Positions 626 to 43,300 of a DNA stretch of 64,000 nt are shown here, in pieces (the stretch's first letter is position 1; each line of letters starts with the position of its first letter). Position numbers and translations under genes: made by a program. The notes beneath the pieces were generated by a model. That model searched no databases. It worked only from the letters and a program-made list of their open reading frames with translations, and had not been told where the DNA came from. Source of the stretch: Rhyzopertha dominica. Lineage: Eukaryota; Arthropoda; Insecta; Coleoptera; Bostrichidae. The DNA is taken from the NCBI GenBank assembly GCA_025024175.1, contig QCXZ01000041.1, forward strand, positions 181,786-245,785, given 5' to 3'.

Positions 626-1156
626 CACAATGGACAAATAAAACAAAATACGTCCAGTAACCTTGATCTCTACATTTATTGAATTATAATTATAATAATT
701 AATTAATTAATTTCATGTCGTACTGTTATCGATTTTTGTTGGAATATTTTTTACCGATTTCTTATTTTTAAAATATTATCTTAATTTCATGTTGCTGTGA
801 ACACTCCTAACCTAATTTTTACAATAACTTCTGCTTAAATGAATGTTATTATTTTTTATTTTAGCCTGCATTGCAAAAATTTGCAAACGCCAATCTTTTT
901 GCAATATTATTTCCGTCAGATTTGCAAAGTGTTTGTTATATTTGGTAGGAGTAAACAAAAGCAAAATGTTTATTTCTCCAGTCGTACAAAGAAAATTTCA
1001 AAAAGATTCTGCCAAACTTTGAAGCATTGTTATCTTGTTTACATAAGTGTTTGATTAATTTCTAAGAAATTTTGGAATTTATCTTTTACAGGGTGCTATT
1101 TTTTATAATACCAAAGCCAAAATTGTAATTTTTAAACAACGATTAAAAGCACTCAC
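626..1156. other. Intronic, no gene seen
   Basis: AT-rich sequence between the LINE relic and dynein exon 33. The short open frame at 839-1054 has no recognisable features. Confidence 0.5.
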
Positions 1157-1352
1157 CGCTCTTCTCGGTTTCCGCCATGCTTCCAATAAATATAGCAATA
1201 AACCATTCCAGAGAATACTGATACATCGGATCCACGTTGGACAGATCGGACAAGCAAAAGAACAATATCTGCCCCCGATTGGCCACGGGAATATATTGGG
1301 CCCTCGTATTATCTATGTCGATCTGGGTGATCTCAGCCGCCTCCACCTTATT
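1157..1352 (-). CDS. DNAH1: Dynein exon 33: start of AAA6 (last exon in window)
   Basis: Encodes [40 protein letters not shown] and [15 protein letters not shown]. The exon ends one base into a codon at a GT donor (1155-1156). The remaining C-terminal exons lie to the left, outside the window. Confidence 0.95.
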
Positions 1353-4300: not shown

Positions 4301-7300
4301 CGTCGTAATGTACAGTCTAAACGCATCGTCGTATGGCACGACGACGTCCCCCAGCTTGAGCACGAGCGTCGTGCCCTGCTTGTAAACTTGACGCAGCAGA
4401 ATCGGATCAAGGGCGGGATCAAGTTCAGTTCCCACATTTTCAATTAATACCGGCTTGCCGAAGCGAATTGCCGACTCCAGTGTTCGAATGAGATCCTTGT
4501 CGGATAACTTACAGATAGACAGGCTCTTCTGCTTGCCCTGCAAGATGGCAATTGGAGAAGTTGTAATGGGGTAATTTTGGGGGTGATTGTGAGGGGTTAA
4601 CGGATAATCGCTCGATTATAGCGTGATTAATTGAGGTTATTCGATTTATAACGTTTAATAGTGCAATTACGTAATAAACAAAGAAGTGCTGAAAGACTTC
4701 CAACATAGACCTATTGTATATAAAATTGAAATTATACTTATTTACGTTATTAGTACGGTAAGTAAATAGTGTACAATAATTATCAAAATTTAATGTAAAG
4801 AAAATTAAAAAAAATAGCATTATATTTTTGTTTATTTTCTAATGGCTAATTGCTATCTTATATTGTTTTCTTTTGCGTCATTTTAGCCGAAAGTTTTTAA
4901 CTTCAATAAGACATTGATACCAATGTTTTGGATATAATAACACTAAAAACACACGTTTCTTGAAATTTAGATCTACTACATGTAAAAATTCCACCTCCTA
5001 ATTAGGCAGTATAATTGTTTCGAGGTTTTATTCACTGTATATGATAATAAGATATATAATTAAATATATGTACAAATTAATAACGGGTTTAGATATTGCA
5101 GTTTGCAGCCAAGTGAACGAAAATTTCATACATATGTTGTGTTCTATGAAATAGGGTGAAAATTAGGAATATAAACTATTTGTTTATGTAAATTGCCTTC
5201 ACCACATGTATGGGACAAATGTACAAATGGATGTTATACACTATTTGTGAATACATTCATATGCAATACTTTAAAGTAATCCAAAGACCTTTTGGGAAAT
5301 GCATCAATTGCATTTTAGTTTTGCATTATTTAGTAAGTACTCCATTAAATATATTTGCCTGGTGAAGCTTTTAACGATTTAGCTCATCCTTTAATATAAC
5401 AAGCTGCTTTGCTTAAATTTTTAATGAAATGCTGTGCCATTATTTGAGTTTAGATTTGCAACATGTTTCTTAATACTGTTTTAATTCGTTTTTTCTGTTA
5501 ATGCAAAGACTAACATCTTGGATATAATTTGCTCAGATGAAAATCTGTTATTTTCTCGTTTATGTTAATATTTGTATTCCTAGTGTATAATTTTCGTCTC
5601 GTATCCATTATTAAAGTCTATAATGGTTTTATGGTAATTAATTTTTTTTTAAAGACAAGATTTCTTCGAACTGCCGTGCTAAACTGTCTTTTTACGAATG
5701 GAAAAGCAGGAAAAGAATGTCTTTTCTAGATGCTCTGATGTTAAGAAAGGACAACCTTGCGATAAGGATCTACATTCGATTATTTTCGAGTAACTTACCA
5801 TGTTTTTGACCCATTTATTTGCTTGTCCCTGGGGATCAATGAATAACGGCCATCTTCTCGAACAGGAAACCAGGACGGCGTTTTCGGTGGAGAGGTAGTC
5901 TCTAGGAAGGCCATCAATTTGCCAGGACCGTATCAAAACCGGCTCTCCCAATGTACTTACAGGATTACAGTTCGGAGTGTGCGGCACTTGCTGGTCCTAA
6001 ATTTCAAATAAAACGGTTCGCCACGTTGTTATAGACGAGCATTGTGATGGTTGAGCATACCTGTATTACTTTGTACCACTCGGAAAGCAGACCTCTCCTG
6101 TATTTGTCGGTGAATGGTGTTAAATAAGCAACAGCACCAGAGCTGATCAATATGTCTCCTGTAATATTAACGGTGCTGGCTTCTATGTTTTCGATTGTAC
6201 TTATCCACCTTTAATAAAACTATTATTTAAAAAGGTGATCATTCTGTTGTATGGTCTGGTTATGTACAGTACTGATTCTGTTCTGTTTTGGAAGGCAGTT
6301 GTTCAGATTCCACATGCTACAATGGGGAAAAGTTTGAATAGGATTATATGCTCGAATAACACTGTGCTATTGTTTTGCCTGCATTATGTTCAATGTGTTT
6401 TCCCTCTAAAACTGGTAATGTCTGTTTAAAATATAACGGGACAGGCTTATTGTTACTGAGAAAATGTTATTGACACTTTTGTTCACCTTTTTGTATATTC
6501 GTTTAGCATACAACGTAATTTTTGGATCCTACCAAACAGTATTATAAACTTTTTAAATTTAAAGTGTAAATTTAAGTGTTTCAAGCTTAACTGCACATTT
6601 TAGTGTTAAAAAGTGGAATGTAGGTTAAATACAAGTAAAATATACAAATAAAAGTTCCCACCTGACTCTCTCATCAGCCAATCCATTGATCAGACGAACG
6701 GCCCTGTTCATCCTCTCCTGGCACACCGCTATGCCCTTCTCCTTCTCCTCCTTGAAGGCGATCTTCGCCTGGAGTTGGTTGTTGAGCTTCTCAAGTCCAT
6801 CCAGCACCTCCTTCATCTTCGCCTTCGCCGTGGCCAGCGCCCTTTCCGTTATTTCCAGTTCCTCCTTGGCCTGCTTAAGGGCGGCCTTCTTCGGTGCCAC
6901 TTGCAAGTTGACGAAGTAGTACTTGTACATGGCGTGCACCCACATGCACAGGGACATGCAGGCTTTCGACACCTTCGCTATCTTGGCCGGTTCGAACATG
7001 GGGTTCTCGACGTACGACTTCAGTTTGACTATCATGTCTTCGGTTATGGAATCCTTGTCGAAGTTCATCAAAGAGGAGAGAAACGCACCGGGATCGGATA
7101 GCATTTGCCTTCCCGGTTCCCAGTAGTCGTTCAGTTTTTCTCCCGGTCTCGTACCGGGGATCTGGAATGAAATATAGAAGTGTGACGAAAGTTGAAGGGG
7201 TCTACGTACTAGTAAATATAAAAAAAGACGGAATGATGAAAGATGAAAGAATAAAATTGCTGAAGCTGATGTTGGAAGGGCTTTTTCCATTATTCAAAAT

Positions 7301-10300
7301 ATTCTCATAACAAGTATTAGAATTAATTACAAATGAATGATGATATGAACCTACATCATTCCAAGCCTTAGATATATGGTTGAGGTACACACAGCATAGC
7401 ATATACATGCATGTAAATGTGCTTAAGCTATGGCAAATTTAACAAAAGACGTACAGATAAACATGGGTAGGTAGAGATCAGATATCTACTTCATCACGAC
7501 TTGGAGAAGCCAATCTTACCAGTCGTAGACCTGCAGCAGGCCCAGAACTTCTTAGGCGTCATCGTGTTGCTCGACTTCAATTTGCCAGAAATCACTAGCA
7601 CTGGGGTGAAAATGAATGAGGACGCGTTTTGCTTACCGATGAGTCCAGATTTAGCCTGCGTTATCCAGACGGTCGCGAGAGAGTATGGCGAAGACAACAA
7701 GAGCGTTTTACAGAATGTATACCTTCAGTCCCAGGGAAGGTTACCAAGGGGGCTCAGTTATGGTGTAGGCACACACAGAATTGTACATCCTTCCAAGAGG
7801 CTCCTTACCTGCTGCCAGGTACATTGATGAAATTCTCCAAGATCTTGATGTTGATTTTATTGGACATGACTTTAGTCTGATGCATGATAATGCCAGAACG
7901 CTCACCGCGAGAATTACACAACAGTACTTAAACGAATTAGACATTCCTGTTACGGACTGGCCAGCGATAAGTCCAGATGTGAACCCAATTGAACATGTTT
8001 GCGACATGCTTGGACGAAGGATGCGAAGTCGTACCTGCTCCTTTAACTTTAAATCAGATGCAACAGGCTCTTTTAGAGGAATGGGAACGTATTCCTCAAG
8101 TTTTAGGCATGCCAAGGAGAGTATATAAATTAATTCGAGCACGTGGGGGCAACACCCGTTATTAAGAATGCGTCGTTCCAGTTTTTGATAGCAAATTGTT
8201 TCCGTTTTGATTAATTTAATGTCATTTTGCAACAACATCAATTTGTGCTTTCGTCCTCATTTATTAATTTGTAATAAAACAATTTTTCTATTCAAATAAT
8301 CGTTCAATTGTTGTTAAATACTACTAAAGACAAGTTATTATGTCTGTGTTTAAGATATTATAATAATAAAACATCAAAAAGCGTCTTTGCTTTAAAAAAA
8401 ACTCAGCTGCTCCGTTTTTCGTGCCGGTGAGTGTATAATTAAAAAAATGCCAAAATTTCATCCTGATAAAATATCAGCAACTATGTCAGGCCGAGAATTT
8501 TTGGCGTCCATATGGTAAAAATACAGTGGATTATTTTGGAAGCTTGATACGTATAATAATAATTTCGGATTTTAGAAGAATTAAAAGATAAAATATTGCA
8601 GCGTATAATATAATCTTTTGTCATAAAAAAGCACTAAAGCTGTTATTTTGCCCATCTTCCCAGTACCTTAATAAACGTAACTAAGCCGTTAATTTTGGTT
8701 TCACAAAGTTGAAACTATGTAAGAGTGACAGCTGTCTGCAACAAGTTTAGGTATTTCCAAGTATAAAACTAAATTCCTGTTAGACGGAAACACGTTTAAT
8801 ACAATTAATTATAGCAGCTTTGCTCTGCGGACAGTCAGTTGCTCCCTGTTTATATCTCATCAAGCTTCTAGAAAGCTTCGGCGCGTGTTTTTTTTTCCAC
8901 TAATGAGATAATATTATTCGTTCCGAAGAACATGCTGTAACGACATTAATTACGTACCTTATTCGGTTTCACGTTTTTCACGATACAAATGGATTCGATG
9001 ACGTAAATAACGCCAGGCGGTGGTCTTTTCATCGCTCGCACCTCAGTGATGTCATTTTTGTTGAGGGCTTTTAGGCTCGCTTCTGCTGCCAGCAGGGCTG
9101 GCAATGCCAAATCTGGAAACACGAAAGCAACGTTAAAACGCAAAATAATTAAACATTAAAAAATTTCCCTATCATTATAGCTCCTCAGTGCAGTTAACAT
9201 TAAATTGGAAAATTCGTGACTAGTTTAGATCTACAAGGACACACTTCCTAGGATACTTTTGATGAGGTACAAGCTCATTAAGATGCTAAACATCACCCTC
9301 TTTGTGATACCTCAAATTAAAGGTGTTTTCACCAGGATATTAAGCTGTTTTTTTTAGTTCCGACCATTTTTATTTATGCATTAAATGTACAACATACGTT
9401 AGTGTCTTTTTCTGTAAAGTTTGACTGTTCTATTTTGTTTTTGGATGATCTGGAGTGCTTAGACCTTTACACATTTCAAAAACTTACCAAGATCTCTTTG
9501 AGCATCTTCAGCTATCGATTGGGTTGCCATGGCTTTCTCCATTGCAGCAGCTTCCTCTTTTTCGACGATTAACTTGGTTTCCTCTGCTATTTCCTGAAAC
9601 ATACGAGTAGCAACGAATTTGACGCTAAAACCGTAGTAGTAAGAACCAATCAAATCGTAACTTCAGGAGCTTACAGTATCCGCTGCGATCTGCTTGATCA
9701 TCACTTCGGCGTCCTTGGCGGCAACCATCAGCGCCGGCTTCATCTCCTCCAGGTTTATCCTGAGCACCTTCACCTCCTCGGTGGTGCTCTGCAGCTTGTC
9801 CAGGCCCGTTTTCAACCTGCCGACGCCCTCGACGAGGGCGCCCTTCTTCTTGTTCAGCAGATCGGTGTAGCTGGACAGGAGCTCCAAATAGGAAGTCGGC
9901 GTCACGTAGTTGTGCCTCGACAACTCCTGGAGGTAGAGGGCGCTCGCGTCCACAACGCTGGCGTGCATGAACTGGCAGACGATGACGATTCCACGCAGAA
10001 TTTCCGGGGAGACGTCGAGTTCGGTTATGTCCTCCAGGAATTGGAAGGCCACTGACTGTGGTAAGGAAGCCATGGGGTTGAATTTGGATTGCACTTACAT
10101 AGCCAAAACGTACAATGCGACTAAAGTTGTCATTTTTTTTAAATACAGTTCGTCCTAGATGATATTTTTGCACCTGACACATTAAGCATTACTGGTGGAG
10201 GTATCGCTCATTAGAAGCCTATTAAAGAAGTTGAAGCTTCCTTATACCTATGTTTTACGAAGAGATACCAGTTGAAAGGAAAAAATGTAAAAAGAAGAAG

Positions 10301-13300: not shown

Positions 13301-16300
13301 AATTGTAAATCTGTCCAACACCCTGTGAAAGGCTTGTTTATTTGAATGTGAGACATGCTGATGAGAAATGACATCTTCCAACAAACCAGAGTATCAAATC
13401 GCTTTTTTTTCTAAAATTTTGTTATAGAATATGTGCTTTGGTATCAATCCAACCAAGTAATCTTTTATAGGTGATAACAATTGAAATTTAACATTTTTAT
13501 GTGAAGCCTGTCTCTCAATTTAAGACGTAGATTGTTCACTTTTCTTTCAGTTTCAAACAACATCATTTTAACTGTTTTCCTTCATAATTTGAAATCTTCA
13601 CGCCCCAACCTGTGCTGAATACTGCCGATATTCTCTCCCCCTCGCGGTTTGTTGTTTGTTATCGCTGACAAAACGGCTTACCTCATCGATATGACGGTGT
13701 GAAGATTAATCCTCACTTGCTTTTGGTACACAGAAAACAGATTAGACTTCGTCGATGGTAATCCCATCTCTTGTAGCAACCCCTTGACTCCATTATAAAT
13801 TTTGTCCAGCTCCTCAGGCTGATATATATTAGGCACGTCTCCTGAATTAAGTATATTATTCAGATCTTCCAAGAAAGATTCGGATTTTATCTGTGCAAAA
13901 AAGCGTCCGTAAATTAGTGATTAACTAGTAATGAGATAGTTAAAACGGAACTCTGTTTAAGTACAAATACCAATTATGCAAATCAATGTTGTTTTCAATA
14001 TAATAATCAAATCAAGTGCAAGTAAGCAGAAAAACGATTGTTTATACCAAAGAGTATGAAAATATATAGGAATTAATGCCACAGCATCGAAAAAGTAATG
14101 AGAGTTGCAAAAGAAATAGATATCACTAGTAACCATATAAACTGAAGGCGTCCATGAAACGAACAAGTAAAGGATACGATTTTTATAAAACTGTCAAGGG
14201 GCTAAAATTTGCAATAACTGATGATGAACGGTCTATAATGAAGTAGACAGGAATGTTTGGAACCGACGTATATCGTGTTCTTGAAGGTTATTTGCTTGTT
14301 TCAGAGGAGTCTCACATAACTATAACAATGAACAATATAACCTTGCGAACTGTTAACGCGCCTTTGGGCCAAGCAATTATAAAAAAATATGTTGAATGGA
14401 TTCAAAGGTGCATTCATTCTGAAACATCCTGAATCAATTAGGTAGCTTGGGAACAAGCTGATTGAACGTATATGTTTTGTCTCACTTGATTTATCAGATA
14501 ACTGACGATCGTTTCGATCTAAAACGGTCACTGTTGTTTCCTACATTAATGCTCCATCGTATAAATTATGCAAATTCGCCAACAACATTTTGACACAATC
14601 AATTGAATGCCAGTCCAAATACAGCGTGAAGAATTCCGTAGGTTTCGCGAACAAGGTAAAAGAATTATCAATACCACATAATGCTATTCTTGTGTCCTTT
14701 GATGTGTCTACTCTTTTCACTTCCATCCCCCTAAATGAACTTTTAACAATCCTCAAAAATAAAATAGAGAACTGCCACCTGTCAAACGCAGAAAAAACTG
14801 AACTACTGAATATCGTGGAAATTTGCATAGATCACAGTTATTTTACGTTCAATGACACATTCTACAAGCAAGACGATGGACTGCCAATGGGTTCACCTTT
14901 GTCTCCAGTCTTGGACGAAATTTTCGTGTCTTTCTAAGGGAAGCTTTTTGCAAAGAAAAATGAAATTATTAAAAAAATGTTGGACGGGAACTGACAGGCA
15001 GTTGGATGTATTCTTAAAATTCTTAAATACAATAAATAAAAAGATTCAATTTACCCTAGAGAAAAAAAAAGGATGGAGTTCTTCATTTTCTGGACTTATC
15101 ATTGTCAGTAAAAATAGTGAAATAGACTTTGAAATTTATAGAAAACCAACACAGTCAGATGCTACAATCCCGGCTTCTTCAAATTAATCATTGCAGATTA
15201 AGCATTCCGTGTTTTATAGTTTAATAAACAGACTAATAAATACACCACTTAGAAAAGAAGGTTTCGAAAAATAATTGACGACAATTAAACAAAAAGCCTT
15301 TAACAATGGATATGACACAAAAATTGTGGACCAAATACTTAAAAAGCAATATAAAATTAGAATACAAAGAATGCTGTACAATGCTAACATCAATGAAAGA
15401 GAACATATTTTTGATACAATAAATTATGCCAAAGGAGTTAGTGTTGGTGTTAAAAATAGGCTGAATAGACTCGGAATAAAAGCAATAGAGGTTAATACGT
15501 GCAATTTGGGAGGTCTCCTAGTTAACAATAAGCCAAAATAATCCAATAAATTGAACAAAATAAAATGTATGCAATGTGACATGATATACATAGGACAATC
15601 AGGTAAATCTATTAAAAACAGAATTAAATAATATAAATTCAAACAAAAGCACAACAGGTTTTGCTGACCATTACATAAAAAATAACCATCACAGATGAAA
15701 ACGACGTCAAAGTTTTACATTGCGAAAGGAAAGGTAAAAATCTGAACCTTTTAGAACTTTTGGAAATTAAAAAAGCTCAGCGTCAGAAAAAACATTTGGC
15801 AAATACACAAATAGAAATTCCCACGTCCAGTACGCCCTTGATATTGCCGAAATTATAAAGTCTGCCTTGAAACCTAGGCGAGAGATTTTACAACACCTGT
15901 AAAAAAGGGGATGTAAACAAAATTCTGCACATCTGAGTATAGTACAACGCTGTTATCTCTTTGACAATGACCGTTTTAGGTCGAAACGATCGTCAGAGTT
16001 ATCTGATAAATCAAGTGAGACAAAGCACATACGTTCAATCAGCTTGTTTCCAAGCTACCTAATTGATATAAAAAAATGTTTTTTAAACTGCATTATTAAA
16101 TTAAAAATAGCGAATTATTGTAAGTACGGGTGAAAAGGTACAAGAATGAAAACCTACCTGAGTGTCAGAAAACAGGAACACCGTCTCCAACTTGTTGACG
16201 CCCGCGTTCAGCATCAGAGTCTNGATGTCCTCCCTCCATTCGGTATTNTGATAGGCCTTAGTCAGCTCGATTTGGAAACAGTGGAACTCGGCCATGTGAG

Positions 16301-19300
16301 TGGCCAGACGCGTCAAACTCTGTCTTCCTGAAAGCGAAACACGTAGCATCTCGGAACGATTGGAATCCAGCAGAAATACCTGAACCCCCCATTCCGAGCA
16401 ACAGGGCATTCCCCATGGGCTGTCTAATGATGCGCGATATCCTGCATACGTGGGCTATTGCGTCCAAGAAGAGGACCAGCTTCATCGGTCTAGTGCTTTG
16501 GTTGTTGTACTCAAAGAGGTAGTGGTCCAATATCTTCGATAGCTTGAGTAGAAAGTTAGTGTTTTTTGTTTATTCTTACTAATAGTGATATTCAAAGAAG
16601 TTTAATGAGAATTATACAAAAAAATCTAAATATAAATAATACAGATCTGATGCTGAAAGTCACTATTTGGAATATTACATATAACAGGAGTTAGATAAAT
16701 GATAAATGTGTTGTTATTTAGCTATATACTGGTATAAAAGACAACAGAGTCGAGAGGAGATGAGTGAAACTTAAAAAATTGCCTGTGGAATACCTCAAGG
16801 GAGTGTGCTAGATCCTATATTGTTCATATAATGCTACTCTAGCAAGAATTGCGAATTGCCACCAATAAACCCGTTCACATTATTGAATATAAAGAAGACC
16901 AACTATACAGAATATTTCTACAAAATGTTAGGATAAATTTCTGAAATAAATTGTGAGGATATAGCCCAACTTAGTACAAACGTTTTCACCGTAGCTTCCT
17001 TCGCACTTTATCCGGGCTTTATATTGGGCCAAGAAGTTTGAAGCGTATTTAACAACCAATCGATTAACAACAACAAAACTTTATACCAGAAAGAGCTAAT
17101 AATAATGTAAGTAAATAACAAGAGGAATAGCATGCACGGTCAATAACAAACGAAGACAGCAAACTTTTACTAAATTATATATTATTCAATGTTCGAAGTG
17201 AGAAAATTGAATTGCACCTTATTCATCCCTTTAAGTGTTCCTCATAAAAGTAATCCTTGGCAGGACCTATGATAAACCTGTCAATAATTCCTGGCCACAC
17301 GTTAATGCACGACCTTCGATGCAGGTGCAGCCTAGTCTTAATGCGAGATAGATAAGTTCCATTTGAAAAACTCGAGAAAAATTGGTCATATTTGGGACAA
17401 TATTCTGAATACCTTGTATAAAATAAAATAAAAATGGGAGTACTTTCACACCTTCCGCTTCCTCTTAACTTAGTAAAACAAAATAAACAGACTCAAATGT
17501 TAAATTTCAAATTTTATTAGTGTATAAGCGATTGCAGGAGCTTAAATAATTTAGCCTGTATTTCATGATGGCAAAGGAGTGACAATATGTGACCTCTAAC
17601 GAAGGTTGACACGAATTCTGGTACGGAATATTAAGACGCGGTAGAAATGAGGTTTACTGGAGCTCTGCAATACGCTATAGCATTTATACAACAAACAATC
17701 TCGTTACCGACGTGGACATGTAATTGGTTTTAACTGCACGGTATTGTGTATGTAATGAATAGCACACAGCAGTATATGCAGTGTAAGATGCAATGTTCAA
17801 ATGTAATGCGATACTGCCTCGCAATTACCTTGATCAAATAGACTGAAAGCTCCTAAATTCAGAGATGGAAATGCAGGTTTATACTGTTCAATACAATTTC
17901 GTGTTTACGATGTATTCTTTTAGGGAAATGAGTTTACGAAATAAAAATCCAGTTAGCGAGTCTATATCTCAACACGTTTTAAATCTAGTGCATTCTTATC
18001 TGACGTTGCAATCTAATAAACAATGGTTGGGTGTCTGAATTTATCTACTAAGCAGACATAATCTATGAACTGAAGACTCGCCTGAAGATCGATGTTTCAT
18101 ACCTTTTCCATGTCCGTTATGTGGATGTACTGCCTGGCATCCGTCGTGGGGTCTAGGAAATCACCATAGAGGATAACAGCAGTGCCCAAAGAACCCACTG
18201 GATCTGAATCAAAGTCCACCGATATCTTCGACCTCAAGAGGTTGTCAAACCATTCTCTATCCGTGTCGTTTATGAGTCTGTCTTGAAACACTCTGCAATT
18301 CTCGTGGTACCATAGCTTGATAATGTCGTCTATGTGCTGTTATAGAAAAAATAATCATAATAATTAATCTTGTTATCGTAGTCTACGCTATGCCTAGTGC
18401 CTATCAATCTCTATACGTAATCGAAACAACGTTGCTTTTATGTAAATTGAATTGGCCCTGTACCAGAACGCACGGCTTTATGCGTTATATGTATTTTCAG
18501 AACTGATTTAGTGCTAACAAAAAGTGTTATCAATTTCCTTGGTTGGGGGTGAATCCAATCTACCCACGCAGCTTGGTACATAATTCTACCTCCTACTTTC
18601 TTAATGAGACTCATAACGGAAACGCTGCTACCGTATAAGACCTGCATTAATTAATTAAATTCCTTAGAAGGAAAGGTTTTATTGAACTGCGTTTTTACAC
18701 TTCGGCGAAGCTGGGATTATAATCAAAAATAGGGTGAAGTGAGGTATATTCTTGATGTTAGCTTCAAGATTTGTAGAATCTATCACTGAGGTCGAAACAC
18801 TAATAGTTAAAACCTAAGAAAACTTGTAGTAACCCATAGCTACACTGTATTATTCATGAAATGAAGGTATAGTAATGCAGCTCTCTTACCGTTTTAAAAA
18901 CCCTGATGTTTTTTTTGCGATTTTTCGGTGGAAACTAATTTTAGCTCAAAATCGACACACAGATGTATTTTCAGCTGCAGATTCAAAAAATTTGATCAGG
19001 AATGAGCTAGGACGTCGGGTGGCCTAATTTACGCCACATTTAGAGCGAACCGTAGTAGCTAGCGACCAACGGATACCATTCCGAAATCAGGACGTCCAGA
19101 TTACTAAATATATGCTTGAAATTATACAAATCGGAGGTGTAAAAATTTTAACGTCCAAAAAAAAACAGAGGGGTTAGCCTTTGATGTTTTGTGATTTTTC
19201 GGTGGAAACTAATTTTAGCTCAAAACAACGACTTCTTTTAGAATGCTTTTTCCATCCATACTTCTAGCGTGACTTTCTTTATTTATTCTTACATTTTACA

Positions 19301-22300
19301 TCAGCAAACTTTTGTAATCATAAGCCGTTGATGAAGTTTACCAATCACTAACATATTATTGTCAGCAAATCATAAATGAATACATGAGAGAGCTCTCTGA
19401 GAAGTCTAAAAGAATAAACTTCCACGCAGGGATGGTGAGAGCATTTTAAACTGAAAATCTGAAAAACATTAAACTAAACTTGTTACTTTACTATCGCTTA
19501 AATTAAAAGTGACTTTGATCAATAGCCTCAATCGTTAATTTTTTGACAAGGAGTTCTTGTTTACACTTCGTCCATTTGTCTGTTAAACATTCTAGTAAGT
19601 TTTCTAGCGTAAATATGACTAAGCCACTTACATTTTTTATCGTTATACCTTACATCGCCCTGTAAGATGTAGATGATAGAATCCGTAAATAACCGGTAAC
19701 ATAGGCGCTGTAATTTTTACGATCCATATAGTTTAGGTCTTCAGTGCTTTGAACAGGTTTTGTGTGAGGGAAAAACTTACTGATGTGTTGTTTACTTGCT
19801 AGCTGTTAAAAATTAAAAGTAGAAAACATCGTATACCTAGAGAAACGTCAATTTAAGAGAAAGTGATTCAATTTTTATATATAGTGGCGGACACTTATTA
19901 GTATACTTTTGATATACGTCGTTGTAGGAAATGCAACCCCCTTCAAAATTATAAAAATCAAATAAAATAAAATCAGCTGAGTTTTTGTTAAGTCTGTTGA
20001 AATTGTTTGCTACTTACAGTTACACTTTCAGCTTCAAACATCAGCACACCCTGGAATACCTTGCTGAGATCCCGCAAGTTAAAAGTATAGTGCGTTTTAG
20101 CTGGAGTTGGGAGCAGTTCACGCAGTATAGTCGTGTAGACGTACAACGTGGCGGTTAACATGACATCGAAGAAGTCTTGCTGCTCGGGCGTTCTGTCCAA
20201 CCAGAACTTGAGGATAGTTCCGAAGATCTTTCTCTGTTATAAGAATAAAAATACTGAAAATTTTAGGAATTCCGCTTCCATGCTATAAAAATATATTTTC
20301 CTACAACCACACACACAAGCCGCCTCTATCTTACCTGACTGTCCTCCTCCATTTCGGTGAAAGCCAAGTAATGAAAGTGTCTCAGGAGACGGGCTGTCAC
20401 GGGGTTCCTGCCGCCACCTGGGGGTCCCATTGCCGCGGCGAAATTTACGTCTATTATCGTTCTGAACTCACCGATATTTCTCCTATCATACCAACCTAGA
20501 GCGTTCTACAAATTAAACATTTCCTGGACCAAGTAGGTTAACTTACCTCTAAAGTCCATCCACTGGCGTATCAGTTCGATTGGGGGTTGGGCCCCGTACA
20601 CTTCAAGCGCTGGCATGTTGAAGTCGTCAATGAAGAACACTTGACGTTTAAGTACTGGTGGTCCGAATACGCCTTTACGTCTTCTGTCCAGTTTCGAATC
20701 GATCAGGTCCTTTGCAACAATAGAAAAATGTACACTGGATAGTCTATGCTGCATGTTTAATTAACAATGAGCCATCTTCAATAATTCCTATGGGAGATAT
20801 GTACACATATTAAGGGTAACAGTAACTCGCAGAAAGCGAAAAGGCCCAAGATACAAGCAACCACTATTTGGATTGATTTGGAAGTCGTCCTTACAATGAA
20901 GGCCATAGATTTTTACAGATAAGTTTCACTTTATACACTACAAACTGTCTTTGATAGGAATGATTGAACGCGGCTCGTTTTCATTTTTTGTTAAAAAAGT
21001 TCTTGAAATACCTGAGTTTGGTTAGCAGTAGTCCTAGCAGAAAACGTTATGAAATCACAAATGAACTTTTTGTGCATGTTCCTGCTTAATTTCTTGATGA
21101 TCGTCAAGGTCTTTCCGGTACCGGTGGGACCCACGCAAAGTACATTGTTCTCGTTGTACAGCAATACTCCAATCATTTCGGCGTTTCTAACGTTATCCAT
21201 AGTGGGCACTTCGATATCTGCATCAGTCGAATAAAAATCGATGGAGTACTGACGGGATGAGGCGTTGATTCGATACAGTACCTGAATATTTCATGTCTAT
21301 AGTGATCTTGTAGTCCTCTATCCCTTCCATCCAGTTACGCCAGGAGGGAGGTTTTGGTTCTCCGTCTTCTGTTGCATCTGTGAATCCCCCATCGTGAAGC
21401 CTTGAAAAAAAGTCGATAACGTCTTTTTTGCCATAACTTTTCGATAATCTGACCTGAACAACTGTTTTAAAGTATCATTCAAAAGTGTACCGGTTCGTAA
21501 GAAAATGTAAACAAGAATTTACTACCATAAAAGAAGCACAAGTAATGTAATCATCAAGTTAGTGTAGTCATGAAACAAAAGCTTTCGTTTCATGACGCCC
21601 TGTTACTATGTCATTGTTTGTGCTTCCTTCATTGCAGTATAAATCTTTATTCTCATTTTTTGACGAAGCAGTACTCTTAAGACATATGAGAACCATTTTT
21701 GTTTATTTTGAATGGTTCTTTAAGACAGTTAGGTCAGATTATCGAAAATTCGTCTGTATAAAAAGTTATGTCAAAACAAGAAAAATGTTGATAGTGCGGT
21801 CTAAGCAACAATCTAGAAAACCAAGCATTTTCGGGGCTATGTTTATATGAAAAAAATATTTTTATTTTTAGTCGTTGAACCCGTTGCACGCCAATTTCAT
21901 CCTGTATACTGCCAACGACATCTGCACAATTAATTGTACTTAATAAATCTCAAAGTAATCGCGCAATGGGAAAATCCACCAGTTGTTTACTTGTCCCTAC
22001 ATACCAGGAAATGACGACTTCATGTCACATTCAATTTTATTTTGCTTTTACGCTTGTTATAACTTAATACCTATAGTCGTACACGAGTCCTTCGGGGGGG
22101 AAGGGGTACTCGACTTCCTGCTCGGTCATTAGCTGGCGAAGCCAACTGGAAAATATCAACCTTCCTTCGTTATCGCATGTGCTCCCGACGCTCCACGTTA
22201 GTGAAAATACCACCCAAGGCAATAGTAGATCAGCTGCAGAAAAGATTACGATGTAATCATACTGGATATTATGCAAGAAATAAACCATTATTGCTTTAGT

Positions 22301-25300
22301 CATCGATAAAAGATCGTATTGCACTTCATATATCTATGTAAAATTTCCTAAAAATATTGGATCTTCACTTGCATTGTTGTTTATGAGGCTTACCACAAAA
22401 TCGTTCTAGTCCAACTCTGTCGTTTTATGGGTAGGTACAACGCCACGTGAAAAACTGATTGCTCTACGTTTTCTATTTTTGAAACTTTGAAAAAGGTTTG
22501 ATACATATTGTAATAATAATATTACGTAAGAATTTAGGATGGCAATGCCATCTGTCAGCATTACACTGACATGATGACAAAGCCACCTAGCTTTGGTATA
22601 TAAGCAAAACCAGTTCTATGCCGTGCTGTCTACACTAGACCTAAACTGCACTGATGAGCTGTAATGACAGCGAAATAGATCTATATGCAGTTGGTTGAGG
22701 TGTAGACAGTACAGCATAGACATGCATTTTAAGAATATTACGTTTTATATCACCCGTCGTTTATTGCTTTGAATGCGGGCAATTCCGTCGTTATATTGTA
22801 GCATAACTATGACATATGCGATACATCGAGAGCCGTTCGGTATTTGAACAAGTTTGATAAACCGATTTGATTGGTAGACAGCAATACTGCGGGCTTGATT
22901 GCCAACCAAACCAGCAAACGCTATGGATTAGAGGGAATGAAATTGCAAGTTCCTTACATCTAAGTACATTATCTTAAAATGATTTGGTAACACCGATCGT
23001 TATACTAACAGACCTGGATGCTAAATATCTACAACTTACGTATGAGCTTCAAAAATTGCGGGGCCGGAGGGGGTTTGTTATCTCGACCAGACAAGGGTCC
23101 TAACCTGTAGTCCATTAGTCGTAAGAATGACTGCAAGACTGCCGATTCTACTGAGGTAAGGATTTCTTTCATCTCTGATCTAAGCAGGGCGAGACCAGGC
23201 AACAAATAGATCTCGAACATATCTAGGAGGTCTTGACCGAACTCTTCCGCCAGCTGAAAAATAACAATGATGCCATGAAAATGGCAAATATTTTAATAAA
23301 AGTATCTTATCTTTGTTTATGGTAAATCGACCCATAAAAAGTTACTCGACTCTTTTAAAGTGCCCATAATCTTAAGGGAATGGAAATGCAACTTCCCTAT
23401 TATACATCTCGCTGTATATATTTAAAAATTTAAAAATCAACACCCCGATACAAAAATTAAATAGATTAGATTAAGTAGATATTTTCTTGATTCAATAAAA
23501 CATGAAGTTNCTTAGCTCAAAAAATTACCAAGCCTCAAAACCACAAAAACAACGATTAAAAAACTTCTCTGGTATATTAAATTTGAAACGTAGTCAATAA
23601 AGCCTTTGTACCCGAAAATATAATTAAAACCGACACGCGTGAAGTAGGCGTTTATATGTATGACGCTTCATAGGCAAATTCTTGTCATTCCCACCGTAAG
23701 GAGGATAAATCCGCAATCCACAGTAGGTAGCGTGTAGCTCTGTTTTCCGTCCGTGTGCTGTAAGGTGATATTATAGATAATGCGGACTATATATGAATAA
23801 CCCGATCCCATATAGAGACAACCCATAGAATGAGCACGCTAAATGCGTAGGAACTACCGTAGACATTAAGTTATTGATCTAAATGCTTCCTCAGATATGA
23901 AGATTACGACTAAAAGGAAGTATGCAGAGGCCCAACATGATACACTTTTTTTTAGACGCACGGAACTACATCACTGTTACAATACCAACAACATCGACAA
24001 CACAAGAACCTAACACTAGAACACATTATGAGGAGATCTAAGAGTTAATAGCAATTGTTCGGTATGTCGCCGACCATAAGCTAACCACAAGCTGTATTAA
24101 TATTTGAGCTTATATATGCTGCCAACATATTCCCTTTTCCTTATGCATCTATCTTATTGTTTTCTTTCGTTGAGTCGTTGTAACTGTAAGAGATATTTTT
24201 GTATGTTTTTTCTGAAAGAACGCCTGAAAAGACGAAAGTAGTTTTTATTATTTTGCTGGTTAGTTGTTCATTCTACTTGTTCCTACTACGGTATGTATTT
24301 GCTTTCCAAACTTCCTTAATTTATTCTAAAGAAAAAAAGATATATCTGATATTGAATTTGGGAAGTTGTTATTGTTTATAAGACAAATCATGTGCCTGTT
24401 ATATACAATTATACTAAGAATTAGCTGCTTATCATAACACCGGCTAATGTTGGCGTGATCGGTGTTGAATCCCTCTACTCTTCTTTCTTGCTGGCCAGCC
24501 CAACAAACGACACACGACACCCATGACACCCAATCACCATTCACTTTTAATTAACGTGTGCCGATTGTAGTTTTTTTTAACCACAAATTAAAATAAACAC
24601 ACAGATCTTAGGAAGTCACTTCATAGCGCTCAAAAACACGTCCTCTCGGGTCGAATGCCACCACTCGAGAGATTTCTTACAAAATTTACAGCTACATGAG
24701 CAAAAATGTAAACTACAACTAAAATAAGTTATTTGGTATTACAAAACAATAGCTTTAAGAAACAAAAAGAGATCTTTATAAGCTTGATCGTGTCCTTATG
24801 TCGATGAAAGCCGTAGCCTGTTTCAAACGATATTAACATAAAAAGCTTTCCCTTTCAAAAATTTTTGTTTTGAAAATCGAAAACCTAAATTAATGACATT
24901 TATATTATCTGTTTGTGCTAAATTAATAATTAATCGAATAATCTCGTTTTGTTCGATACCATGTACTCACCGGCGGCAACCTTTTGATCCAGCAGTTAAT
25001 GAACGGCATCAGACCCAGCACACCGGGTTCCATGTACACCATTCCGCACCTGGAGACAGTTGCAGGGGAGGCAACAGCTAAATCAGCCACTTCGAACATC
25101 ATCGTCATCGTATCGCGCAACTTTATAATTTCTCCGCTGCTCAGGCACAACTTCTTGTTATCGTCCAGGACGGTGTTCATGTTCTCTATCCAGACTGCGT
25201 CCACTGGACCGTCGAAAACGTACCAGCGCTTGTCTTTTTCAGGAACGTTTAGGTATACTCTGACCAGAGATGGTAATATACCGTCCGTCCTGTAAGAAAG

Positions 25301-28300
25301 GAGCGATATATGAATTGTTGATTAAATAATACAGGATGCATGCCAAAATTCCTGTGTACAAAAGCACAGATCGCAAATTAAAGTATTATGAAAGTATTGT
25401 CGGTAGCAGTAGGACGTCTCCAACTTCTGTGGTCGTAAAGACCAGAGAGTGGGACTCTTGAGGACGTATTAAATCTTGTTCCACTCAGTTTTAGTAGAGT
25501 TTGATAACAGACGTGAAGTCAACAATTTTTGTTGCCATGGAAAACCTTTTTTTTTGCTCTTGTGAAAATTCCCACTATAATAGTGTTTTGATTCGTATGA
25601 CATAAATGACTGAAATTGAATTTTTGATTGGTTTTTAGAAACGTCAAAAAATAATTATCGAATACCACACGAGGGTGAGAATAAATTGGAAAATAATTCT
25701 CCAGAACTTTTATTATCGAATGGGAGCCGTAGGCAACAGTTTCGAAGTTCTGTCTAATTACTTTCAATGTATTTTCACTCTCTTGTGATGTTATAACTGA
25801 AAATATGACGACTGAAATATACTCACAAGCAAAACAAAGGGTTGGTTTGTACTTAAATCTATTTATTCTTTGGCTTCGTTGCTTGTCTAAAATATGCTAC
25901 CTTTCGCATGTTTCCTTGTTTCATTTCGGGGAACAAATTTAATAATACCTGACGCTACCAAATTCAAAGAAGCTTTCTGTTTGTGTTGTACCGTGAAATA
26001 CTTTCACTACAATATCAAGCACCTTCGTTTTTGACCTCAAATTTGTCACTCCTGATTTATCCATCACGTCTAAAATAAGTTATGCTCCCGTGCCATCACG
26101 GCAAAACCAAGTATAGCCGAGTAATCAGCCCATTCGTCAAGATAACGCTCGATTCCTGTTCGCGTCTTTTATCATCGAACGACGGATCGCAAACTTTTGA
26201 GTCGCGATATCTCTCAAATCGAATCACGGCCAAGCTCGCCAAAAACAAAAGAAAAAAAGAACTACCAGTACAGAAACCTTTTAGTAAACGAAACGTGATC
26301 GCATTAGCAATTCGTGCAAGCCCGGTGTGAACGTTAAAAGTTTAAAAACTAAATTCAGACACGTGCGGACAAAATTATGAGGTGTTTCACACTTTAGTAC
26401 GGCTTAGGGATATATCCAAAAAAATAAAATCTTTGACAGTTTTAAATTTCTATGTTTAGTATAACACAGTCGGATATAGTGGAATAGCAATTTCTGTGGG
26501 CCAAGAAGCATAGTTCAGTTCAATTTTAGTTTGTTTTAAAGTGAGGTAAACATCGTTCAGTTATATTGAGCCAAAGATTTCAAGAGAGTCATTTACTTTA
26601 ACTTCTACTGAGGATGACAGCTTAACCGCCGAAATTCCGATAAATATGTGTGCTCGAAAGTGTGTTTTTAAAGTAAGGGTTATTTTCAAAATAGCTAACC
26701 TAAGATGTCGCTCTCCGGTGTTTTCACTAGCTTGAATTCGTGCCCAAAATTATATTTTACATGCATTAACATTTCTGGAGTGATGAATCTACATGCATCA
26801 CGTATTTTATTTTCTAAATGTTCTACACTTTCAATTGGTGTTTGGCATACTTGCTCTTTTACCACTCCCCAGAGAAAAAAAATCCAAAGGAGTAAGGTCC
26901 GGGCTTCTCGGTGGCCAAGGATTAATTGAACCTCTTCCTATCCATCGGTTAGGCAAAACCAAATCAAGATGATTTCGCACTATTCTATGATAATGCGCAG
27001 GTGCCCCATCTTGTTGGAACCATAGATCTTGTCTTACTTGTAAATTTACATTTTGGAGAAGTGCCGGTAAAATGTTTCTTAAAAAATTTAGATAAGTATT
27101 ACCGTTTAGACTATCGCGAAAAAAAGGCCCAACAATTTGATTCCCCGATATTCCGCACCAGACATTCGTCGAGAAGATAGTTAGAAAATGTCCTTCTCGA
27201 ATCGATTTTCTTGCGCATAATAATGCATCTGAGAAGCAAATGTCATAAAATCTCACATTCAAATTTTGGTGTTTCCGAAAAAAGTTACAAAAAGCCAGTC
27301 TTTTAGGATAATCTGTCTCCTTGAAGGCCTCAACCAATTGCAAGTGATACGGATGAAATTGATTGCCTTTAATTATTCGGTGTACTGAAGACAGACTAAT
27401 ACCGGTTGCTCTTGAGACTACCCTTTGACTAATATCAGGATTTTCGTCAATCATTTCCAACACCCTAATTTCATTGTCAGGGCCTGTTGCTGTTCTTTCT
27501 CTTGACTTTTTCAGTGGTGGCCAATTTGTCCTTAAAATTAATTCAAGTCTCTTGGAAATTGTATCGGCAGGAGCTCCATTATTTGTAAAACGTCTGATTA
27601 AACGGGCAGCAGCGGAAGCACTTTTACTTGCATTCACCGTAAATCAAAATCATATCTGTTTTTTTCATCATTTGAATACATTTTGACTTTTAATAAATAC
27701 AGTGACANGAACCATAGCGCATAGCCGTCATGGATTCCCAATTTATTTTTAAAATTATACCGTTATGTAAAATAACCACACTGGTTCTGGAATGTATTTT
27801 GGGTTACATTTTTAATTTCGTCAGTGTCATTATCATTCGTGAAACATCCTGTATACAGTGTTCTGCAATTGTGCATTTGTGGTTAGATATGGAAGGAAAG
27901 AATTTTGAAACGATGTTGTAAAACTTAAATTGCGTTCAACTGCACTAAAGTTGTAAATAAACTTGACGACTTTTTGCAATAAATTTGTCAAAACCATCTT
28001 GATGTAAATACACTTTTGTTATCAAAGCACACTATGAAAATCCTATTAAAAATTTGGATTATAAAGCTGGCGATTCTTCTCACACAGGTAGTATCCAAAC
28101 AAATAATTTTGACATTGTTCCAACGCATGCTTCTGTTTTGCTTTTCTCCTGGCCTGTTATTATGAATTCCCCAGGCCGACAACATCTCCTAAATTGATCT
28201 AACGAGTTGTCTGTTGACGCGCCGTATAAAGTCCGACGGCGACAGTCGAAATTTGATACTCAGTTCCACCTACCACTCGTGCGTTTGCAGATCGAACTCT

Positions 28301-31300: not shown

Positions 31301-34300
31301 GACATTCCAATACGACCAGTGGTTGCTGAAATATTCGTTGTTAAAATTTTACGAATTTTGAAAATATGCAATACTTTTCTACTATTCCAATCTAAAAACG
31401 ACGCAACGCAAGCGTATCAACCACCCAAACTTATATAAGACCGCCGTCAATGCGGAAAGCGCTCCAGTTACTCGCACCGCGACGGCCGCGACGCGCCATG
31501 GACTCCCTACTGAAAAACTCATCGAACATGACGGAAGCCCTGCTCATCGACCCCGGAGGGATCGAGAACGAACTATACGAAGAGGTCATGTGCGACCCAT
31601 ACCACAAGTACCTCGTCCTGCTGCACACCTACTACATTCCCTTCATAATCGCTGTAGGCCTGATCGGCAACCTCCTCTCCTGCGTGGTGTTCCTGTCGAC
31701 GCCGCTGAACACCAGGAGCTCGAGCTACTACCTGGCGGCCCTCGCCATGGCCGACTTCGGCTTCCTCTGCGTGCTGCTGCTGGTCCACTGCAGCTTCAAC
31801 GGCATCTTCGACATCTACAACAGGGACTGGTGGTGCCAGAGTTTCGTTTATGTCAGCACGGTGTGCGCCAACTTGAGCGTCTGGCTGGTGGTGGCCTTCA
31901 CCGTCGAGAGATTCATCGCGGTGCAGTATCCGCTTCAGAGGCCGCAGATTTGCACGGTGTCGAGGGCGAAGATCGTCGTCGTGTCCTTGACAGTGACCGC
32001 CCTGCTGGTGCACACCTACATATTCAGGGTTGCCGGCATCCTCGACGTCGGTGAGTGCGAGATGAAACAGGAGTATTACGATTTCATGCGCGTCGTTAAC
32101 GTAATTGACACTTTTGCTACCCTGATCGTGCCTTACGTTCTGATTGTCGTCATGAACACGATGATAGCGAGGAACTTGTTCCTGTTCAAGAAAAGGCTTC
32201 AGAGTGGATCCATGGACGAGTGCTTGTATGACGATACTGAGCAAACTGAGTTGCAGAGGACACACACTCAGGTAATATACAAAATAAGTCACATCTACTA
32301 GAGCATTCCGAATAAACGTGAAGATATAGGTTGCTTAATTTTGTACAGAAATATGGTTGTTATGCTAATTAATGAATACTAGAAATGTTAATTTTTATCA
32401 TTTACTTTTAAGTGTTCTATTGGACACTAGAAATTGTAAAGCTATAAGAAATCCTGTAACAACCATGTTCTGATACACACAATAAGCAGGAATTATACAG
32501 GGCATGGGCGTACCCAGCTTTTGGTCTACGGAGGGGCAAAATAGGAACGTCCTTAAGAGTATAATTCAACATAAATAGAAATAATAAATGTTTATAAGAT
32601 ATAGGTACTTAAGTAATTAATGAAGTATTTATTCCATGAATAATTTTCGTGGATTTTCTGCAAGGCGACTTAAAACATCTTCTATGAAATAAAGACCCAA
32701 ATTATTTATATGTTTTCTATGTACACTGATCATACAAAGCCCCTTTATTACTAATTCCCTTATTGATGAACTTAGTTAGGTGAGACGCATTCAGCTGCAT
32801 AGCTCTCGCGATAACAAAAAATGAGTTGATACATTTTATTTGGGAAAATAAAGATCAGTGACCACATAATGTATAATGATATCATACGAAGTACCAAAGG
32901 AACATAAATTTCACCTTAAAAGTTCTACTAATAGGACCACGATTTCTGATTCAGAATTAACACATATCAAAGACTAATGCATTAACCGATGCGCTTTTAG
33001 TACAGTTTCAACTTCCCACACCAGAACCTTTAGAAATTTAAGCTAGAAATTCATTTGTATAGGTGCTAAAGATATAATTGTAGTAATTTTTACTCCCCGG
33101 GGAAAGAGACTCGATGGATAACTAACATTATTAAAACTCAGAATGACAAATGCCTCAGCATTATGCGTCAAGCCAGCCTTCTTAGATTACCAGTGCATTG
33201 CTCTTAAAAATTAACCAAATTAAGCTTCATTTAAATAAACTGAAATATATTTAATTGCATTTTTAACAACACACCGGGTTTTAATTCGTGCTTATAATTC
33301 TTTAACTGGATTCCTAAAACTTATATTAAACTAATTGACTTTCATAAACGTGAGTTCGGATGGATTATTATTTTTTTTGTATTAATTGTTAAAATGTAAT
33401 GTGAATTTAAAAATTTTCCTATAACAGTAGTTAGTTGAACAATCTTTATAAGAAAAGGTAGAAGAGCTGAACTAAGCAGAAATCGTGTTATGACTCATCC
33501 TGACTCAAGATAGTCTTTTAAAGCTATATCCGATTCGTAACAACAAGAATGTTGCAGTCACAGCTTCAAAACGCACATGGCATCGATTAAGTTTGGAAAC
33601 CATTTGACAACGACTTATTAAAGAAGGTCATTTGCAAGGTTCAAATAGGTATGAGTTCTGGATGAAAATTGTGAAATAAACTTGCCTATAATTTTCACTG
33701 CATTTACAATTTTGTAAATAAGACAATTTTTAGGTACATACACATAACTAACCAGCTAAATGTATGGGAAATTGGAAGGGCCCAGAGTTGGCAACCCCCC
33801 TCCTTGTCCTCGCCCCATCGGTACGCCCTTGATACAGGGTGACACTAAAATAAAGACCGCTACTTCTAGGGTGTGCATGTTCTACACGTGAAAATATATG
33901 ATGAAAAGTTATCTGGCGTTTTGACATATGTGGCCCCCCTACCGAGTTGTAGCCTTTTGAAGATGCACGGTAGATAACAGTTTTTTATCGCTAACTTTTT
34001 TATTATCATTTTTAAATTATGGCTCATAGAACTGTGCAAATAGGTCTTTCATACCTCTCTTGAGGACTGAGGTGTTAACCACCCGTAAGAGTCTTCGGCT
34101 TAAATTTTTAGACGGTTATTTATTCCGTTTTGAAATCACATTTTTAAATCCATGATTCATATGAAAAAGAAAATACCCTCTTTTGCTATTTCTCAAAAAT
34201 GCACCATTTACGAGAAAAAAGCATTTAAAGTATGTACTGTTGTTTCGCTCTTACTTGCACTTGATTGCAGACAGTGAACCGTGCACGAAACAGGCACAAA

Positions 34301-40300: not shown

Positions 40301-43300
40301 ACTAAGCACCGCATTTTTATCTAGTTTATTTTAAAAACTGATGGCGTTGACATATTTAGTTAGATGTTATCACCACTTCTGAAATATGATATGGTCCCTG
40401 CTCGTTACCCCAAAATCGAAATGGCGATGGCGGGGAATAATGAACAAGGGATTAATTCTGTCACGAACAACTGAAAGGTGCAAGGCCAAAAAATCATGAC
40501 CCAGATCGATACGCTGCTGAAAACCGTCCAAATTTGTTAAACCTCGATAAAAAACGTTATGACTTTTTGTGATGCGTTTGCCACTGCTATTATGGTTTTC
40601 AAATATAAAAATAAATGAGTTACTTGCTTGCTAGGAGTCGTATGCGGATAGTTCGACAATAACTTGATGGAGTAAGCGTTCCAGAGCGTTGGGCTAGTGT
40701 TAAAGACGACCACAGAAGTTGGAGACCTCATACTGCTACCGACAACACTTTCACTGCTATTGTGGCTACAATAATGAAAGAATCTCAGCAAAAAATGCAG
40801 GAATACCTTCGGGACCAGTTAGTTTTTTAACACAGTCTAAACCTCACCCTCATCAAGTTGATATAAAACCCACCCAACAAGTGGCTTTAGTTTTTAAACA
40901 CGTAAAACCTTTTGGTAAAATACACAAAATTTTTCTTCCTTTACTGGCTACTATCCGAAATTACGCGCTTTCCCAAAATAATACCACCTCTCTAAAAGTA
41001 ATAAATGAGTATACGATTATATACGGGGGTGAATGCTTTCAGCGTCCATTAATATAAGATAATATTTCGTCGGATAGATAGCTGTCTCTTGAAAACACTG
41101 ACAAAAAATTAATAGTCTGACGTTTCGATTACAGCTGTAATCTTTGTCAAAGACGAAGAACCTCAAAATTTGCCTGACACAAGTTCAAACAAAATTTTGT
41201 TTGAACTTGAGTATATGATTGATTGAGTATGATTGAGTACGATTGAGTATACGATTATTCGGAATACTAAACAAACAAGAACAAGTAGTAGAATATAAAG
41301 TTTAATACCCAATCTCCTTTCCAGAGCGCCAGTTCTCGGAGGGGTCCACCGTCGCAGAACTCGAACAAGTCGATGCTGACGAAATCGGGCAAGAGAAAAA
41401 ACAACGCTACAGAAATAGCCTGCATACGTAAGTTGATATCTTTGTTCGTACGAGACAGGTTGCAATGGTATTACGTTATTTTTGCAGATATAAAGATGTC
41501 GGCGAGGAACGTAATATCGCCGAAGTGTCAGAGGAATATTACGAAAATGCTCGTCGTCATAGATTCGGTGTTCATAGCCCTCAATTTGCCAAGGTAAACA
41601 CTCCCTAATCTTGGTGCTGTGCAAGAAGTAATTGAATGCCTTTTGCAGAGAGTCGAGTGATTTATGCACAAAACAAACTTAATTATGTGTTATATTTTCT
41701 CAGTTAATTATCAAACGTTAAGACAACAGCGCCTGTCGAGGCATTTAAATACTTCTTGGCTTTGTCAAATTATACTCTTATGTAACGAAAACCCGTTGAA
41801 ACAGGTAACTTGAGATTTTCAAGATTGTGCAATAGGTCTGTTTTGGTGTTCCGTGTTATACCAAACATCCCATGGTTGGTTCAGTCTCCGTTAGGCGCAC
41901 CATTTTAATTAAACATGCAAGTCACAGACTTCTTTGAGAATTGTCACTGTAAATATTGTATATGAGACTTGTCACTCACAATGTCGATTTTTTACAAATT
42001 TTTTACAGACTATAATGAACAATAATGCATATGGTCGTATATGTTTCAGTAATATCAGAATAAATCCCTTTTTTAAATCTGTAGTTATTTGTTTCAGCAG
42101 TCTTGGAATTTTTGCAAATAACCCTTAATTATGCCTTACTTTATCGACATAAGAAATATTCAAATCTCGGCACAGGCGTTATTATTTTTGATACCTATTG
42201 CACCAAACCCGTTAAAAATAATAATAGCAAGTAAACATTCAAGTGTCTCGTTTTCATATAAAATTGACCGAGCGTATAGGTACTTATGCAATAAGACAGT
42301 TAGTACTACTGAATTAGAATAAAATAACGCGCCATACCCAATCATCACAACTTTTAACACATGTATATAAAAGAAATTTAAATAAAACTAGAAATAGAGC
42401 TTCAGAAAACTAATAATACTGGAAACAAAATGGATTACAATTCTATATATAATGCTTGTCTGGCTTTCAATAAATGTAAAGTGGTTGTTGTAGCAAATGC
42501 TTATAAAACGAAGTATACCTATTCCTGCCAGTATATACAATGCGATCAATACCTGGTCAAGTTACATCCTTAGTGGTTGTAGGCTATTGTTCTCTGCATA
42601 ACTTTAGAAGTTAGACTCCGGATATCTAACAAGAGGTCCGATAACACCAAATTATTATACTGCGTTGCCCGAAGCATCTTTCCACATACTTGAGTGACTT
42701 CACATCGATCAATAACAGAGCCTTATGATATACACTATACACAGCTTTTGAACAGTAATAAATAGATTCAATAAAATTGATAAAATCCTTCTGCATAGAG
42801 TTCAGCAAATTATGAGGTAGATTACATAATTATTTTTTTTAGACAACTTAATAGAGATCCCGTAGGTGACATGATAGGCAGATTATCCGAGCACTGTGTA
42901 AAATCAACTTATTTCTTATGAAAAGGTAATTTTTATGAACAAAAATCAGGTTATACAAAATCCTATAGTAGTCAATTTTTTTATGGAAAATTTTCATGAG
43001 ATAGGGGTCAACAGTTATCAGTTAAAGCCAAAATGTTGGTATGTGTATCTAGATGATACTTTTCTTATCCGGCCCCATGGTATAGAAGAATTAGGTAGTT
43101 TCTAAATCATTTGAAAACAGTCACATACAAAAGACGTTATTTGTTAGAGCACAAGGAATCTCAGACGAAAGTTCTTTACAAAAGAAATAGTGAGAGATGG
43201 TTATAGCAATAAGAATAATAAATAATTAAATAAAAATGCTCATCCAAATCAAGTAAATTCTCAGCCTGGACAAAGTAAATTAAAGCTGAATTTATCTTAT

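Follow-up and report, generated by a model that had tools for sequence, protein, structure and literature searches.

A candidate single-unit animal non-LTR retrozyme with a type I hammerhead motif, antisense to a DNAH1-like dynein gene

What a short segment enclosed by exact direct repeats and encoding a hammerhead motif might be, and how it came to its present place, is the question raised by positions 22528-22733 of the 64,000-nucleotide stretch of Rhyzopertha dominica DNA analysed here (the window). The 206-bp insert (+) lies between two exact copies of the 10-bp direct repeat AATATTACGT (22518-22527 and 22734-22743; no strand assigned), a putative target-site duplication which had been reported in a preliminary description and is borne out at both positions. 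In an equal search space, random 105-bp cores had a 10-bp repeat in 99 of 5000 cases (about 2%); the flanking repeat on its own is modest, not decisive, evidence of insertion. The two ends of the insert, compared by eye, do not form an inverted repeat, and its inverted self-match is internal; on this reading of the ends, a terminal-inverted-repeat DNA transposon or MITE was rejected. The insert has no simple-repeat tail and no protein-coding frame of note in its 206 bp, and the frame read from the AUG in the hammerhead core meets a stop after 14 codons. No tandem copies were found within the 64-kb window, so that, as far as the window extends, the description of a single insertion and not a satellite array holds.

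A descriptor of type I hammerheads (stems I, II and III of at least 4, 4 and 3 bp, respectively; both strands scanned) recognized a complete motif on the plus strand of the insert at 22644-22692. It comprises the 5' strand of stem I (AACTGCA, 22644-22650), the core CUGAUGA (CTGATGA in DNA, 22651-22657), the 5-bp stem-loop II (GCTGT/ACAGC with an AAUG loop, 22658-22671), GAAA (22672-22675, A15.1 being 22675), the palindrome of stem III (ATAGATCTAT, 22675-22684), H17 (A22685), and the 3' strand of stem I (TGCAGTT, 22686-22692), all on the plus strand. CUGANGA, stem II, GAAA, A15.1-U16.1, H17, and three stems are present, and the motif is open at stem I, whose two strands form 7 contiguous base pairs and not the 6 given earlier. 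Self-cleavage 3' of A22685 is predicted from the motif.

This was the only match to the descriptor in the real window, compared with 8 matches over 1000 dinucleotide shuffles, and none of the 1000 shuffles reached equally long stems (6/5/3 bp), which bears out the earlier claim of a complete, correctly spaced hammerhead and led us to reject a chance motif. In the Rfam scan of the window, proposed in the preliminary description as a covariance-model check, nothing reached the gathering score; the best hammerhead match was HH9, which falls below the threshold (26.3 bits vs gathering 52), with an E value of 0.028 for the whole window and of 0.00022 for 501 bases. A match to mir-214 over the long hairpin was set aside (15.5 bits vs 66.7). 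The sub-gathering score, together with the frequency at which a 10-bp repeat arises by chance, speaks for a coincidence of hammerhead match and flanking repeat. Given the result of the shuffles, the long outer hairpin, and the related fragments described below, one of which contains the ribozyme core as well, we regard such a coincidence as extremely improbable.

The predicted RNA fold places the hammerhead at the tip of an outer hairpin (22616-22719, +), in agreement with the outer stem claimed at about 22616-22721, and its pairing joins 22616 with 22719. The sequence 22616-22721 folds to -51.6 kcal/mol with z -8.86, an energy that none of 200 shuffles attained, the GC content of the hairpin region in the cmscan line being 42%. 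As RNA, the entire insert folds to -81 kcal/mol, lower than any of 200 shuffles (z -7.45), and its 5' part (22528-22610), in which a 5' lobe is predicted (22535-22605, +), reaches -27.2 kcal/mol, a value matched by none of 300 shuffles. The active fold of the monomer, at -48.2 kcal/mol, lies 3.4 kcal/mol above the best fold (-51.6 kcal/mol) and makes up about 0.08% of the ensemble as computed without tertiary contacts. The sequence of stem III forms a perfect palindrome of 10 nt, with 3 bp and a GATC loop in the monomer and 10 bp in the dimer, which would allow two copies to pair as a more stable double hammerhead. The computed energies (-112.6 kcal/mol for the nested double hammerhead, whose stem III has 10 bp, vs -103.2 kcal/mol for two monomers, 2 x -51.6) back the dimer preference earlier proposed from the short stem III. 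For the insert folded as a circle, two lobes are predicted, 22535-22605 and 22611-22724, connected by an unpaired A/U-rich stretch that consists of the two ends of the insert; the insertion point would lie in this hinge, 48 nt beyond the cleavage site.

The element lies among minus-strand open reading frames (ORFs) whose matches to dynein axonemal heavy chain 1 are colinear. Numbered by residues of 9fqr_X1, these are 24923-25321 (residues 1919-2030), 23029-23292 (residues 2031-2095; none at 0.001, the sole match being a weak one, E 0.13), 22064-22333 (residues 2101-2155), 20991-21290 (residues 2198-2268), and 6625-7293 (residues 2966-3135). Since it falls between 23029-23292 and 22064-22333, the element is placed within an intron, its position being derived from the ORFs and not from mapped exon ends. 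Such a position, with HH9 as the best Rfam family, which we take to be a conserved amniote intronic hammerhead, would suit a ribozyme recruited by the host to cut the transcript of the surrounding gene, as amniote intronic hammerheads would. The ribozyme is, however, on the plus strand and the DNAH1-like gene on the minus strand, so that the pre-mRNA would be without the ribozyme; we rejected a recruited intronic ribozyme because of this antisense orientation and consider the explanation highly improbable. Elsewhere in the window, a 301-amino-acid open frame on the strand opposite the dynein gene (31396-32301, +) matches rhodopsin-family GPCRs (7tm_1, 64.5 bits), and two transposase-like remnants with helix-turn-helix and DDE_3 matches (26831-27643, -, and 7769-8128, +) are presumably of mariner type and Tc1 type.

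Comparison of the insert with the whole 64-kb window by BLAST and nhmmer newly revealed two decayed fragments. The first (7377-7417, +; 33/41 identical) corresponds to the 3' end of the element and ends one base before its 3' boundary; no alignment was found further upstream, and no convincing duplication surrounds it, the best being 4 bp, equalled by 299 of 600 random placements. The second (9163-9195, -; 29/33 identical) is half a ribozyme, which keeps the 5' strand of stem I, the core CUGAGGA, stem II with an identical AAUG loop, and GAAA; its core still agrees with the consensus because position 7 is free. The 9-bp repeat TTTAATGTT occurs on its 3' side (9152-9160, -) and its 5' side (9196-9204, -), and a flanking pair of this kind was equalled by 5 of 1500 random and 0 of 1480 local placements. 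In the interval 9152-9204 (-), a hammerhead piece of 33-35 bp thus lies exactly between 9-bp repeats, as though inserted alone. Between the element and this fragment, one pair of stem II is changed on both sides (G-C vs A-U) and one is broken; with two sequences, the compensatory pair is non-significant (236/500 shuffles). An Rfam scan of the 9163 fragment gave no hammerhead match.

The nhmmer E values of the two fragments are weak (0.0075 and 0.014). Among shuffled inserts, a BLAST partner as strong as 39.9 bits appeared in 0 of 1000, and one as strong as 34.4 bits in 2 of 1000; among ordinary 206-bp pieces of the window, such partners appeared in 39 of 300 and 42 of 300, respectively, a consequence of the many repeats that the window contains. 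The sequence similarity suggests that the two fragments are remains of a dispersed element family. Together with the motif, they support the part of the preliminary description that proposed a mobile non-autonomous type I hammerhead element. Exact-pattern scans of viral contigs and of genome contigs in viral and prokaryote collections gave 0 matches, and blastn of phages gave no match to the element; given the viral and prokaryote content of these collections, this says little about copy number.

Could the insert be a SINE-like linear element with its own transcription, whose hammerhead either trims the RNA or is simply carried along, without formation of a circle? Such an element would be a single flanked unit, as this one is, and in the insert there are strings resembling an A box, one at 22613 that resembles a B box under relaxed criteria, and a TATA-box-like string (TATATAAG, 22597-22604, +). 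The A-like and B-like strings are nevertheless spaced too closely for a usual tRNA head, a tRNA search found none, and neither a strict B box nor a simple-repeat tail is present, which makes a tRNA-type SINE unlikely. Although Smalpha of Schistosoma is termed a SINE-like retrotransposon with a hammerhead in the excerpted text of PMC8490949, we consider a SINE-like origin of the insert quite improbable.

Another candidate source is suggested by the content of the window, in which putative Penelope-like elements co-occur with the insert as reverse transcriptase (RT) remnants and three pseudo-LTR (pLTR)-like motifs. The RT remnant at 3978-2589 (-) matches RVT_1 with 28.7 bits (cut-off 29.6), and at its end is what we take to be a GIY-YIG-like stretch. 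The pLTR-like motifs, of minimal-hammerhead shape, are found, by pattern and alignment, at 2186-2207 (-), about 380 bp downstream of this ORF, and at 41119-41140 (-) and 43339-43360 (+), within copies that span 2186-2225, 41119-41160, and 43320-43360, respectively; these 3 window matches compare with a mean of 0.00 in 100 shuffles. They share an ACGU stem III, and all three have the core UUGACAA, which differs from CUGANGA by C3 to U and G8 to A, so that the 3-8 base pair would persist as U-A for C-G. To judge from its sequence, the UUGACAA motif could be a variant or dead ribozyme. A relaxed descriptor allowing at most one core mismatch detected no hammerhead over 1-5300 and 13500-17500, nor did Rfam scans of the two RT regions. 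We take the three motifs to be putative Penelope pseudo-LTR hammerheads, in part after PMC11167929 and PMC7761336.

Pieces of one Penelope-like family are present at 1000-4300, 41019-41199, 42844-43453, 50745-51012, and 62383-62725, and in the copy at ~4075-2120 (-), part of the 3' region recurs in inverted orientation close to the 5' end (4010-4045 vs 2121-2157). A second RT remnant (14506-15187, +) lies within 14433-16067, flanked by 104-bp inverted repeats (14433-14534 and 15964-16067, 93% alike); a sub-threshold Histone3 stem-loop match (16036-16082; 27.1 bits vs 34) overlaps one of their arms.

With such elements at hand, the insert might be what severe 5' truncation has left of a longer, protein-coding retroelement, whether Penelope-like or of another kind, with the hammerhead and a short tail at its 3' end. 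This would agree with the position of the Penelope-like hammerhead upstream of the internal RT start (PMC11167929, excerpts), since here, likewise, the 3' end lies 48 nt past the cut, and with the fragment at 7377-7417, which resembles a still shorter copy with a nearly equal 3' end. Penelope hammerheads are, however, described in the excerpted text of PMC7761336 as minimal forms that lack helix III and loop contacts, whereas the insert has stem III, and reading from the core AUG stops after those 14 codons. Moreover, when five stretches of the window that are Penelope-like or bear RT sequence were compared with the insert (50745-51012 not among them), none resembled it (best E 0.64). A truncated copy of the window's own Penelope-like stretches was rejected on these five comparisons, and we consider the truncated-copy explanation as a whole unlikely.

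The reading that we favour, with somewhat better than even confidence, is that the 206 bp represent one insertion of a non-autonomous animal non-LTR retrozyme, spread by its predicted self-cleaving RNA and, probably, a Penelope-like RT. Counting against it are that no second full copy was seen, that the Rfam score is sub-gathering, and that the fragments are weak. The steps beyond transcription, including cleavage, circle, enzyme, and their order, are what we infer as the most likely route. In a tandem or read-through transcript, the hammerhead would fold at the tip of the long hairpin, two copies could pair by the palindromic stem III into a double hammerhead, and the RNA would cut itself after A22685. 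The unit RNA would then be closed to a circle, probably by a host ligase, and copied into DNA by the RT of another element, most likely a Penelope-like one; insertion at a staggered A/T-rich break would leave the 10-bp duplication. The self-cleaving RNA would probably be circular, and the element was probably moved by a Penelope-like RT.

Several published observations bear on this route, each cited here from excerpts. Circular unit RNA is reported in coral, mussel, and axolotl retrozymes, and axolotl dimers cleave better than monomers; according to the same source, animal retrozymes are tandem repeats, and no circles are expected from isolated hammerheads (PMC7229834). A single unit would therefore need a tandem source or a read-through partner, as one unit by itself cannot yield unit-length RNA. 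Penelope-like elements are named only as likely candidates for moving retrozymes in the excerpts of PMC7761336. A Penelope-like protein of a lizard initiates reverse transcription at an internal site of the RNA, past the hammerhead on its downstream side, and its DNA target, which it cleaves at ATT, is A/T-rich; as far as the excerpts of that paper go, hammerhead mutants had no effect on in vitro insertion, and no RNA ends were found at the hammerhead cleavage site (PMC11167929). Since such mutants leave insertion intact in vitro, the ribozyme may not matter for the insertion step, and the missing RNA ends likewise speak against a need for cleavage there. The duplication AATATTACGT also contains ATT, which means little at an A+T content of 61-65%.

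Within the retrozyme reading, the position of the hinge invites a more specific and tentative proposal, which we hold to be improbable as it stands: on an RNA circle, a Penelope-type enzyme would start at a fixed hinge site 48 nt past the cut and make one turn, giving a single unit with a 10-bp duplication. If true, it would tie retrozymes to Penelope-like machinery through their junctions. A clean single-unit insertion that preserves its two ends and the target duplication bears on what moves animal retrozymes, and on which template, since its exact junction can be set against those of other copies to test directly whether initiation is internal on a circular template; apart from the value of this junction, the element is one more lineage of a known, widespread group.

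The insert was not recognized among published hammerhead elements, with which it is comparable by the description given in excerpts of the papers and not by sequence. Its structure, size, composition, and self-pairing fit published animal non-LTR retrozymes (coral, mussel, axolotl; PMC7229834, PMC7761336), which likewise have a type I hammerhead, low GC, and strong self-pairing, are ~170-400 nt long, a range that includes the 206 bp of the insert, and are also without coding capacity. It falls within the retrozyme definition of a type I hammerhead in a low-GC non-coding unit of about 150-450 bp. As in those retrozymes, the duplication is >4 bp (when one is present) and Penelope-like elements occur in the same genome; they are tandem, whereas the insert, likened to them by description and not by sequence, is one unit between direct repeats. 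Penelope-like pseudo-LTR hammerheads resemble the insert in lying a short distance upstream of the insertion's 3' end and in their A/T-rich target (PMC11167929, PMC7761336, excerpts), but are minimal, in contrast to the insert with its stem III and no coding region. The type I hammerhead in a short non-autonomous repeat is shared with Smalpha and the W-elements of Schistosoma (PMC8490949, PMC6155905, excerpts), a likeness of description and not of sequence; these, unlike the insert, mostly form long satellite arrays. One W25.2 unit is described as possibly flanked by a target duplication (PMC8490949). Closer in arrangement, again by description and not by sequence, are the dispersed hammerhead repeats reported for Aedes, Nematostella, and Xenopus, which are interspersed like the insert; in those of Aedes, a palindromic loop III was proposed to give a 10-bp dimer stem, as stem III of the insert would (PMC3088659, excerpts).
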